A DNA stretch of 41,005 nucleotides, from the NCBI GenBank assembly GCA_938023075.1, contig CALHDG010000062.1, positions 1 to 41,005 on the forward strand, given 5' to 3'. This stretch comes from an uncultured Chitinophagales bacterium. GTDB lineage: Bacteria > Bacteroidota > Bacteroidia > Chitinophagales > JAHDHT01. The stretch's first letter is position 1. Each line of letters begins with the position of its first letter. The notes beneath the pieces were generated by a model that ran no database searches, was not told the DNA's origin, and saw nothing but the letters and a program-made list of their open reading frames with translations. The translations under genes and the position numbers were made by a program. Positions 7,277-40,890 of the stretch are shown here, in pieces.

Positions 7277-7443
7277 AACGATGCAATTAATTAACTTAGT
7301 ATATTAAGCAATAAGCATCTTTTTATTATAATAATTAATTTTTCTTTATGCGAAAATGATCAACTCAGCCAAACATGCGCTTCAATCTCATTTCGTTATA
7401 GTACATTTTATTAACCTGGCATTTAAACAATTCTATTTTTTTA

Positions 7444-7556
7444 GAAGCGAAACCAAAAATAATTTAAAAACGGGCTCCCCGCTATCCGTTCAAATGCTAC
7501 GCAAACGCTTCATAATCAATGCTTCAAGTAGCATAACCACTGCTATCGGGGCTAAA
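7444..7556 (-). repeat. Structured intergenic repeat, copy E
   Basis: One of five copies of the same element, in minus orientation here, inside the 640-base gap 7277-7913 between divergent genes. Helix P1 is CCCCG (7477-7481) with CGGGG (7547-7551). Helix P2 is ATGCTAC (7494-7500) with GTAGCAT (7528-7534). The shared GTTTCGCTTC tail on the minus strand is 7444-7453. This copy has the most diverged internal loop (AGTGG and GAACGG in place of AGCGG and GAGCGG). An 80-codon frame at 7356-7598 runs across it and is an artefact of the repeat. Confidence 0.85.
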
Positions 7557-7738
7557 CTTCCAACCTCATCACTTTTTAAATACCTTCCAAATATATAGCC
7601 ACTAACTTAATTAGAACTAACCTAATTTTGATGTCCGTAAAAATAAATCGTTTAATCTTAAGTCTGACTACTTATTAAGCCTGGAAAATTAATCTACTTT
7701 TATCTCAATACAATCTTTTAAACGCAGCGAAAAAAGTA

Positions 7739-13645: not shown

Positions 13646-13669
13646 AGCACTGGTTAAAAAACCAGTGCT
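13646..13669 (-). terminator. Terminator between rnhB and the L-domain-like gene
   Basis: AGCACTGGTT (13646-13655) and AACCAGTGCT (13660-13669) pair over 10 bp with an AAAA loop. On the minus strand the stem is followed by TTTTTA, so it mainly serves the gene ending at 13695; it may also stop rnhB transcripts. Confidence 0.75.
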
Positions 13670-19971: not shown

Positions 19972-20766
19972 ATGAATGCTTACTTAAAATTGCTGGATAC
20001 CATACTAAATGAAGGAATCAAAAGGAGTGATAGAACCAATACGGGTACATTAAGCATTTTTGGCTATCAAATGCGTTTTAACCTACAAGATGGTTTTCCC
20101 TTGTTAACAACTAAAAAAGTACATCTTCGCTCAATAATCTACGAATTACTTTGGTTTTTAAATGGTGACACGAACATTAAATATCTTAATGAAAACAAAG
20201 TCAACATTTGGAATGAATGGGCAGATGAAAACGGTGAGCTTGGTCCGGTTTATGGACATCAATGGCGTAGTTGGTCTGCCCCCAACCTGCAAAGTATTGA
20301 TCAAATCACCCAACTTGTTGAAGGGCTAAAAAATAATCCACATTCACGCCGGCATATTGTAAGTGCTTGGAATGTGGCAGACATCCAACACATGGCTTTA
20401 CCGCCTTGTCACTGTTTATTTCAATTTTATGTTGCTAACAATAAACTAAGTTGCCAATTATACCAACGCAGTGCCGATGTATTTTTGGGTGTTCCTTTTA
20501 ATATTGCCTCTTACAGTTTACTAACGTTAATGCTTGCTCAAGTTTGTGGTTTGCATGCTGGTGATTTTATCCATACTTTTGGAGATACGCATATATATTT
20601 AAATCATTTAGATCAAGTAAAACTGCAACTTAGCCGTTCACCACGTAGTTTACCGATAATGCAAATAAACGCCAACGTGCAAAACATCTTTAATTTTAAA
20701 TTTAATGATTTTACGCTGTTGGATTATGATCCGCATCCAGCAATTAAAGCTCCAATTGCCATATGA
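19972..20766 (+). CDS. thyA: Thymidylate synthase
   Basis: 264 residues, the short bacterial form. It methylates dUMP to dTMP using methylene-tetrahydrofolate. Catalytic Cys is in L-P-P-C-H-C. The [19 protein letters not shown] substrate loop, the H-x-Y-x-N-H motif and the A-P-I-A-I end are intact. The TGA overlaps the folA start (ATGA), so the two are one operon. The dihydrofolate made here is recycled by the next product. Confidence 0.98.
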
Positions 20767-21260
20767 CTATTTCAATTATCGTAGCCTTATCAGAAAACAA
20801 TGCCATTGGTAAAAATGGCAAAATACCCTGGCATTTGCCCAATGATTTAAAACACTTTAAAAAAGTAACCTTAGGGCACCATATTATTATGGGCAGGAAA
20901 ACCTTCGACTCAATTGGTAAGCCTTTACCCGGTAGAACCAATGTAGTAGTAACCAATCAAAAAGATTTAAAAATTGAAGGTTGTGAAGTGGTTAACTCGC
21001 TTGGTGCAGCCTTAGCCATTGCGCGTTTAGATAATCAAGATGAAGTGTTTATTATAGGAGGTGCCAGTATTTACGAAAAGATGCTGGCAGATGCTGAAAA
21101 AATATACCTTACCAGGGTGCAAACCAAAGTAATTGGAGCCGATACCTATTTCCCAGACATTGACGAAAAAATGTGGATTGAAACCAAAAGTTATCCCTAC
21201 TTACCAGATGAAGAGCACAACCATGCCTACACCATTAAACTTTTAGAACGCAGAATGTAG
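20763..21260 (+). CDS. folA: Dihydrofolate reductase
   Basis: 165 residues. It reduces dihydrofolate to tetrahydrofolate with NADPH. Visible motifs are the N-terminal [11 protein letters not shown], the active-site loop [12 protein letters not shown] (catalytic Asp), the NADPH-binding [17 protein letters not shown], and the G-G-A-S-I-Y motif. It starts inside the thyA stop codon, a classic thyA-folA pair. A repeat (copy D) lies downstream in opposite orientation. Confidence 0.98.
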
Positions 21261-21313
21261 CTAACTTTAACTTAATGGTAAAAACGTTTTTAAAATTTTC
21301 GTATAATTTTTTT

Positions 21314-21429
21314 GAAGCGAAACATCTAGACTTAAAATAAGGGTACTCTTGCTTTCCGCTCAAATACCGTTTGCCAACCCACCAAAGCCATGCTGCATAA
21401 ACGGTATAACCGCTGCAATCAAGGCTATA
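21314..21429 (-). repeat. Structured intergenic repeat, copy D
   Basis: Minus orientation, between folA and the BASS gene, which both run on the plus strand. P1 is CTTG (21348-21351) with CAAG (21420-21423). P2 is ATACCGTTT (21364-21372) with AAACGGTAT (21399-21407), 9 perfect pairs. The tail GTTTCGCTTC on the minus strand is 21314-21323. The loop arms GCAGCGGTT and TTGAGCGGAAAG match copies A and C. Confidence 0.87.
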
Positions 21430-21521
21430 CTTCAAACAACATGCTTCGTTGCTAAATAAGTAAATTGACAATTAAATAGAAAAGTGCGCTTTGTTTATTG
21501 TAATAAAAGTATATTTAAGCA

Positions 21522-22430: not shown

Positions 22431-22458
22431 CAACTACAACGGAGCACCCTTAGAAAAC

Positions 22459-22573
22459 TAGCCCTGATTGCAGCGGTTATGCTATTTGCAGCGCTTGGTT
22501 TTGTGGCGTTGGCAAAATGGCATTTGAGCGGAAAGCAGGACTGCCCTTCGTATGAGTACATCTGGTTCGCTTC
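22459..22573 (+). repeat. Structured intergenic repeat, copy A
   Basis: Plus orientation, 28 bases after the BASS stop. P1 is CCTG (22463-22466) with CAGG (22536-22539). P2 is ATGCTATTT (22479-22487) with AAATGGCAT (22515-22523), including one G-U pair. An inner AGCGC/GCGTT helix is possible. The tail ends with GGTTCGCTTC and an A run. Confidence 0.87.
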
Positions 22574-22592
22574 AAAAAAAATGATTGTGCTA

Positions 22593-25970: not shown

Positions 25971-26041
25971 CATGGATTGTTGATTTTAAATCAAAAACAG
26001 GACTAAAGCATTGCTCCCTGCGAACCACTACCCTTAGCAAC

Positions 26042-26155
26042 CTAGCCCCGACAGCAGCGGTTATACCATTTGCAGGGCAGGCAATGTAGATGGGCAGAAT
26101 GGTATTTGAGCGGATGGCGGGACTGCCGTTTGGACGAGCAAACCAGTTTCGCTTC
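26042..26155 (+). repeat. Structured intergenic repeat, copy B
   Basis: Plus orientation, after the lipoprotein gene and before tldD. P1 is CCCG (26047-26050) with CGGG (26118-26121). P2 is ATACCATT (26063-26070) with AATGGTAT (26098-26105), 8 perfect pairs. The tail GTTTCGCTTC is 26146-26155. The apical part is G-rich and unlike the other copies. Confidence 0.86.
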
Positions 26156-26245
26156 CACTAATTTTTAATTAATTAATAATTGTAAAGTTGCTTTTTTGTA
26201 AGTATTCCTCATTTTTTGGTAATTTGTGCTGAACAATTTTTTTTT

Positions 26246-40654: not shown

Positions 40655-40763
40655 ATACACACTATTTGTTGGCAAAAAGTATTTATTTTTTACATGATTT
40701 CCTAAATTTTTAACGGTTTATCTAAAAAAATAAAGTAGTGAGCACCGTTGTATTTATTTTCTT

Positions 40764-40874
40764 GAAGCGAAACTTTTGAGCATTACAATAAGGTTGGTCC
40801 CGCTTTCCGCTCAAATGCTGCGGCTGCACACAAATGCCAACGCTTCAGGCAGCATAACCGCTGCAACCTTATAT
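40764..40874 (-). repeat. Structured intergenic repeat, copy C
   Basis: Minus orientation. The outer helix differs from the other copies: ATAAGGTT (40788-40795) pairs with AACCTTAT (40865-40872) over 8 perfect pairs. P2 is ATGCTGC (40815-40821) with GCAGCAT (40849-40855). The tail GTTTCGCTTC (minus strand) is 40764-40773. It lies just downstream of the terminator of the minus-strand gene at the right edge. Confidence 0.85.
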
Positions 40875-40890
40875 CCGCATGTCTATGTTG

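Follow-up and report, generated by a model that had tools for sequence, protein, structure and literature searches.

The five copies of an intergenic element found in the window, by which we mean the whole 41,005-nt stretch of DNA analysed (contig C62 of a 6.12-Mb genome in 288 contigs), are a divergent, longer and very abundant branch of Flavo-1 (RF01705). On balance, we favour the view that the element acts as DNA: a REP-like, non-coding hairpin repeat in high copy number. Its arms change together with little wobble, which points more to a DNA-level repeat than to an RNA switch. Also weighed for a DNA repeat were its copy number (about 480), the scarcity of wobble pairs in helices P1 and P2, arms that are complementary in 100 of 108 copies, a folding energy near that of shuffled sequence, the bias toward intergenic positions, the frequency of antisense neighbours, patchy occurrence (43 of 296 genomes) and the target duplications of copies carried in miniature transposons (MITEs). 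The kind of element is already known: the Flavo-1 motif was first described in 2010 by Weinberg, whose Table 1 grades it as probably RNA and probably not cis-regulatory (PMC2864571, accessible portion). As far as the accessible open-licence literature shows, what is new is the long subtype, its copy number, the depletion of wobble, the MITE-borne group and a shared break point.

Membership in Flavo-1 emerged only at permissive thresholds. A scan of the window against Rfam at gathering scores gave no match, and a permissive scan matched copies A, B, C and D to RF01705 with 33.0-38.1 bits (E 9.7e-5 to 2.5e-3), all below the gathering score of 42; copy E had no match to this family at E<=10. The original prediction had called for a covariance model of the five copies, and the resulting model, R1, matches its own genome and 25 others among 296 Bacteroidota genomes. 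RF01705 matches 43 of the 296, the source genome counted in, and 36 of these over the cut-off; all 25 other R1-positive genomes lie within the 42 other RF01705-positive genomes. Because the two models recognise the same genomes and in some cases the same coordinates (for example, G077:C21:507844 and G273:C18:82679), membership in the family is firm. Among 14 named control genomes, none reached the RF01705 gathering score and 10 gave a match at E<=10. The element, for which the original prediction knew no assigned function, is thus in Rfam, but the match brings no assigned role: we found none for Flavo-1 in the accessible open-licence literature, Rfam gives its type as sRNA, and the accessible text of PMC9029176 lists it with the most abundant sRNA families of bacteria and gives no function.

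The window copies share with canonical Flavo-1 a foot of TAGCCC-GAT, loop strands of the AGCGG type on either side, a P2 helix starting with AT and a GC-GGG closing strand. They differ in scoring under the gathering cut-off, in their loop strands GCAGCGGTT and TTGAGCGGA, in a longer tip and in an added tail, GTTTCGCTTC followed by an A-run. The tail is also found in G001, a relative from the same family, where two of the matches listed end in TTTCGCT(A/C)CAAAAA, and the long subtype with this tail is a lineage variant of Flavo-1. The source genome holds both types: RF01705 has at least 147 matches there (among the best 150 of 1,826 candidates), 72 of them at or over the gathering score. The matches comprise 31 short canonical copies above 55 bits and, in greater number, copies of the long type that score close to the cut-off or below it. 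In eight other positive genomes, at least 2 to at least 61 matches were found at E 1e-4 among the best 150 candidates of each, and a pattern search of a 400-kb stretch of G137 found one canonical copy. We note by eye that the canonical copies L001-L030 show a non-Watson-Crick linkage at the foot of P2, GGTATCC occurring mostly with GATTT and GGCATCC with GATAT. At one canonical locus (L031, G000:C102:40000-52000), four copies lie within 4.3 kb amid small open reading frames (ORFs), some of which resemble, by eye, toxin-antitoxin genes.

Each of the five copies was relocated in the window (Table 1), and the positions and order of parts originally proposed hold for all of them. Pairing in P1 and P2 is also as described, the sole wobble being in copy A (ATGCTAT with ATGGCAT). 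The conserved unit extends beyond the proposed copies, starting about 30 nt upstream of TAGCC and continuing through the A-run after GCTTC; in profiles built from 77 left ends and 68 right ends, with the MITE and insert classes left out, information begins about 30 nt ahead of TAGCC and lasts up to the A-run after GTTTCGCTTC. The copy at 40764-40874 had been taken as intact, with an alternative helix in place of P1. This proved mistaken, as a foreign end, ACATGCGGATATAAGG, stands where its 5' P1 strand should be. We read the reported helix of AACCTTAT with ATAAGGTT as a coincidence because a second copy broken in the same way (L133) has no AACCTTAT partner for ATAAGGTT. The right end of copy D faces the 3' end of a DHFR gene (20763-21260, identified by Pfam); synteny of the thyA-DHFR-transporter-EF-G region was not found in G001.

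Table 1. Positions of the Flavo-1 copies and their parts in the window
Feature	Position	Strand	Evidence
Copy A, core and tail	22447..22590	+	R1 142.7 bits, training sequence; RF01705 38.1 bits at 22456-22546
Copy A, P1 5' strand CCTGATT	22463..22469	+	Located in window; pairs counted
Copy A, conserved 5' loop strand GCAGCGGTT, holding 5' side of two-pair helix P1b	22470..22478	+	Loop identity; P1b pairs
Copy A, P2 5' arm	22479..22489	+	Located in window; pairing counts
Copy A, P2 3' arm	22512..22523	+	Located in window; pairing counts
Copy A, conserved 3' loop strand TTGAGCGGA	22524..22532	+	Loop identity
Copy A, P1 3' strand AAGCAGG	22533..22539	+	Pairing counts
Copy A, tail GGTTCGCTTC and A-run, right boundary of unit	22564..22581	+	Boundary profile
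Copy B	26031..26172	+	R1 134.3 bits, training sequence; RF01705 33.5 bits
Copy C	7427..7566	-	R1 136.6 bits, training sequence; RF01705 33.0 bits
Copy D	21297..21439	-	R1 142.2 bits, training sequence; RF01705 36.8 bits
Copy E, broken: P2, loop strands, P1 3' strand and tail, without P1 5' strand	40747..40866	-	R1 113.6 bits, training sequence
Foreign element end ACATGCGGATATAAGG at foot of copy E	40867..40882	-	Same end in L133 and L176
Possible MITE-class right arm, diverged, at copy E	40712..40749	-	By-eye likeness to class 1 right arms

Compensatory change was the central claim of the original prediction, and it is borne out for a dispersed Bacteroidota element. Our alignment held 66 copies, the five in the window and 61 from a sample of the genome, and covered 15 pairs (990 cells); of the 69 R1 matches in this sample, three below 46 bits, two cut by the end of a stretch, L123 (canonical type), L121 and L138:14441 were left out. 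Three helices hold across these copies: P1, P2 and a two-pair helix, P1b, inside the loop strands, where AGCGG/AGCGG covaries with AGTGG/AACGG. Pairing was kept in 95.9% of cells (shuffle mean, 83.1%), double changes occurred in 12 of the 15 pairs (shuffle mean, 7.9) and 159 cells were doubly changed (shuffle mean, 46.5). None of 500 shuffles reached the observed pairing, number of doubly changed pairs, number of doubly changed cells or covariation score, and a fifth measure, further pair types, was reached by 8 of 500. When the 3' partners were shifted by 1-3 columns, pairing fell to 29.5-44.6%. The loop strands are frozen as proposed, with a mean pairwise identity of 1.00 in 53 copies, compared to 0.62 for P2 and 0.45 for the 3' spacer; values for P1, P1b, the tip and the tail were 0.81, 0.74, 0.57 and 0.84. 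The contrast between the spacer identity and the kept pairing indicates that pairing is maintained in copies whose spacers have drifted far. In a set of 108 copies that overlaps the 66-copy alignment, the P2 heptamer has an exactly complementary partner in 100, and there are 21 distinct 5' heptamers.

Wobble pairs are scarce in this alignment. The 912 cells counted comprise 895 Watson-Crick pairs, 11 G-T, 3 A-C and 3 other combinations. By helix, G-T is absent from P1 (318 cells, from the 53 copies whose 5' strand is intact) and makes up 3 of 462 cells in P2 and 8 of 132 in P1b. For P1, the wobble counts omit the 13 of 66 rows in which the 5' junction is foreign; the covariation test includes them, and pair 17-100 then gains 8 U-G cells. 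As a small yardstick, the stems of five tRNAs of the source genome hold 15 G-T in 117 pairs. The first seven P2 pairs of 25 canonical copies of the same genome contain four G-T and no A-C. The lean of the non-Watson-Crick pairs toward G-T fits a folded RNA as well as a folded single-stranded DNA.

Folding energies do not clearly set the core apart from shuffled sequence. Compared with dinucleotide shuffles, RNA stability of 87 cores has a mean z of -0.68 on the given strand and -0.97 on the other, and the window copies range from 0.02 to -1.84 as RNA and from 0.25 to -1.94 as DNA. By reading of the printed structures, the consensus fold is found in all four intact window copies with DNA parameters and in three of four with RNA parameters. 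In 53 copies, RNA parameters give the consensus pairs a mean probability of 0.70 for the given strand against 0.81 for its complement, and DNA parameters favour the plus strand (0.76 vs 0.66 minus). Unnormalised energy favours plus in 80 of 87 cores, while against shuffles plus is the more negative in 24 of 87. The folding strand is left undecided by energy because RNA and DNA parameters prefer opposite strands. Selection on a fold, as originally proposed, must be read with caution: RNA stability is near that of shuffles, and wobble is almost absent from P1 and P2.

The element is dispersed at high copy number. In 835,484 nt, the first <=20 kb of each of 60 contigs between C1 and C66, R1 gave 69 matches at E<=0.01, 66 of them at >=46 bits, which extrapolates to about 480 copies of the long subtype in 6.12 Mb. 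A search of the whole genome gave at least 150 matches, the best 150 of 1,472 candidates all matching. Copies lie on both strands and mostly between genes: 87 of 95 placed copies are intergenic, though crude ORF calls assign 82.5% of the stretches to coding sequence, and most of the eight "intragenic" copies look like over-extended ORFs. Relative to the element's strand (ORFs of >=90 codons in copy-bearing stretches, with seven copies at stretch edges left out), both neighbouring genes are opposite for 34 of the 87 intergenic copies and both are on the same strand for 18 (p 0.036). For 22, the upstream gene is on the same strand and the downstream gene opposite, and for 13 the reverse; the downstream gene is thus opposite in 56 of 87 (p 0.0097). 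These orientations argue against a fixed transcribed strand, without being decisive. The median distance to a gene is 72 nt from the right end and 187 nt from the left. Replication-strand bias was absent, with 43 of 93 copies on the G-rich strand by GC skew.

Two comparisons bear on the persistence of copies. One orthologous position common to three related genomes (L178, L179 and L183) carries a persisting copy. In one gap of genus g55, probably Flavobacterium, the element is found in 1 of 15 aligned loci, six loci with gaps of 600-743 nt having been left out. The search for insertion footprints that had been proposed thus revealed presence and absence at this gap but did not fix the junction, the 15 loci being too divergent. 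One canonical copy used as a query had no match in 72,556 plasmid and 50,697 phage records, and one exact canonical pattern had none in viral contigs. The absence from plasmid and phage records, based on one canonical query, is odd for a freely mobile element.

A subset of copies is carried by a MITE. Class 1, recognised by a left-arm pattern, comprises 24 of 92 deduplicated copies, at least one of which (L148) is apparently misassigned; class shares are approximate because the copy sets mix the genome sample with top-scoring R1 loci. In the 12 copies for which both ends were found, the MITE form is about 245-250 bp long and ends in ACAAGTTTATC or a close variant. At the best offset, a flanking 5-mer is common to both sides in 8 of 12 (0.58 expected) and an 8-mer with <=1 mismatch in 7 of 12 (0.48 expected). 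These flanks are consistent with 8-bp target duplications. No target duplication was found at any offset tried in the 68 of 92 copies that consist of the core only, and the mobility of these is accordingly no more than presumed. Ends of the ACAAGTTTATC type also enclose other cargo (L177:5335-5608, L152:5451-5738 and L127:6696-6987), the unit in L127 having an evident flanking repeat (aattgaggg).

Foreign sequence joins the core at a single point, GAT^TGC, in three or more ways. An insert of about 200 nt lies there in 10 to 13 copies and may be one old insertion that later spread. The ACATGCGGATATAAGG end breaks two copies at this point, window copy E and L133, and a different end does so in L160; ACATGCGGATATAAGG abuts Flavo-1 in L133 and other sequence in L176. 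The L133 copy adjoins a fragment of a transposase gene (DDE_Tnp_1_4, 34.3 bits against a cut-off of 34.7; DDE_Tnp_1, 27.4 bits, over its cut-off of 23), which is likely to belong to the IS1380 family. Copy E also appears, by eye, to have kept the right arm of the MITE in diverged form. A version of the element with a gene in its tip had no candidate in the stretches of the source genome scanned.

Known systems offer partial parallels. Like REP/BIME sequences, the element occurs as intergenic hairpins by the hundred, in both orientations and close to the ends of genes, and is unequally spread between species; unlike them, it has a three-helix stem of about 160 nt with a conserved internal loop, and Y1 transposase genes mostly do not adjoin it. 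MITEs of DNA transposons resemble its form of about 245-250 bp with ACAAGTTTATC ends and 8-bp target duplications (12 measured), but 68 of 92 deduplicated copies have neither the arm pattern nor a duplication. The attC sites of integrons may be similar in having arms that are complementary but not conserved, conserved extrahelical bases and a variable tip; in contrast to attC, a cassette-like array was not seen in the four loci inspected. The original prediction had left the choice among a REP/MITE-like unit, a protein-binding RNA and a 3' regulatory element. The REP/MITE-like option is the best supported, given MITE arms and target duplications in a subset, and the RNA option draws on covariation, the G-T lean and, from published work on another species, some overlaps with transcribed regions. 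Direct support for a 3' regulatory element was not found.

A transcribed, protein-binding Flavo-1, serving as a small RNA or 3'-UTR element and selected as RNA copy by copy, is in our estimation unlikely. The very strong covariation with frozen loop strands, the excess of G-T over A-C (11 to 3), the wobble in P1b and the pair probabilities with RNA parameters on both strands all speak for it, as do the Rfam type and the 2010 grading (PMC2864571, accessible portion). In the published transcriptome of Flavobacterium psychrophilum, several 5' transcribed regions coincide with Flavo-1. However, the published hits are sense or antisense, with no clear link found, and the strand that RNA energies prefer is not the one favoured by the G-T counts. 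Further evidence against an RNA is that P1 and P2 together hold three G-T in 780 cells, unlike usual RNA helices, that stability is close to that of shuffles, and that a consistent transcribed strand is absent, neighbours lying antisense to the Rfam strand more often than not. Complementary arms could be maintained at the DNA level, and covariation by itself may therefore be no proof of RNA. We regard as quite unlikely a chromosome landmark, a structural or protein-binding DNA site kept at gene ends by host selection with little present mobility; BIMEs, for instance, bind gyrase or IHF. The copy that persists at one position in three related genomes, the kept pairing amid drifted spacers, the lack of plasmid and phage matches to the one canonical query and the closeness of the right end to genes would suit such a site. 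The patchy occurrence among genomes and the lack of replication-strand bias would not, nor would the copies that are MITE cargo or are broken by foreign ends in the source genome. Even so, pairing that is kept in nearly all aligned copies despite great divergence could reflect host selection on each copy.

Mobilisation by TnpA-REP (RAYT), a Y1 transposase, of the Bacteroidetes subclass 2.6 appears highly improbable, even though this enzyme is the best candidate among known mobilisers because subclass 2.6 genes are reported, in the accessible part of the source, to be flanked by atypical secondary structures (PMC6006769). That account suits both the phylum and the element's appearance. In addition, one Flavo-1 match in G199 (C8:37179-37258, 37.4 bits, under the cut-off) lies 233 nt from a Y1 gene (C8:36587-36946, in a 181-aa frame), in a genome with only four Flavo-1 matches among its best 150 candidates. 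Linkage is rare elsewhere. In Flavo-1-bearing genomes, a match over the cut-off lies in the 1.5-kb flanks of 1 of 30 Y1 loci, which were taken from 75 listed matches and encode mostly short proteins, a RAYT-like frame of >=180 aa being present in 2 of 30. When coordinates were compared in eight genomes, with the best 150 candidates per genome, Flavo-1 lay within 2 kb of 1 of 26 Y1 genes, namely the G199 case; among the 12 genes whose frames measure about 180-222 aa, this is likewise the single case. A PF01797 match is absent from 6 of 26 Flavo-1-bearing genomes. In the source genome, a copy lies within 2 kb of 1 of 9 PF01797 matches (for two of the nine, at the ends of contigs, flanks were partly seen), and three Y1 matches with 209-225-aa frames have none. 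The single neighbour is explained by an IS200-like transposase unit with its own end hairpins (L058:1500-2080), directly beside a Flavo-1 copy. Because TnpA-REP is, the G199 case apart, mostly not linked to the repeat in the genes tested, we do not consider it supported as the mobiliser and commit to a hairpin repeat at the DNA level with another, putative mobiliser. Our analysis found no mobilising enzyme, and inspection by eye of the clusters of canonical copies at C102, C166, C63 and C190 recognised no common transposase.

One way in which a DNA-level hairpin repeat could spread would be through recognition of a folded single strand, or a cruciform, by a putative protein that reads the AGCGG/AGCGG internal loop. 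Such a protein would copy the core without target duplication, a mode of copying also proposed for REP sequences and TnpA-REP. Each round of copying may restore the complementarity of the arms, or one arm may be corrected against the other; either would yield double changes without wobble intermediates. One group would also spread as the cargo of an ordinary MITE. A stronger version, which we find possible though doubtful, is that Flavo-1 as a whole has been mis-filed as RNA and is the substrate of a putative ssDNA-processing enzyme of Bacteroidota, which would make it a new hairpin repeat system, its arms being re-templated and so changing together without wobble. A genome with so many copies and clear subfamilies makes the RNA-or-DNA question testable.

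An intrinsic terminator was considered and rejected, as a T-run after the hairpin is absent in both directions. Of 27 terminator-like hits between 7200 and 27100, a range that lies outside copy E, one falls in copies A-D (7469-7483, minus strand), and it is made of the P1 3' strand, not the hairpin. Read on the other strand, the element follows a T-run, and the 32 nt ahead of this run fold weakly, with a mean of -1.94 kcal/mol where the copy faces an opposite gene (54 copies) vs -0.98 where it faces a co-directional one (28 copies) (p 0.065 for energy, 0.031 for z; five copies missed). Elsewhere in the window, at 13646-13669, there is a strong 10-pair terminator-like hairpin, AGCACTGGTT/AACCAGTGCT. 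Lastly, three tandem matches to another family, Acido-Lenti-1 (RF01687), lie near a Y1 transposase at L219:2190-2367 in G107, a genome outside the taxa named for Acido-Lenti-1 in the accessible portion of PMC2864571.
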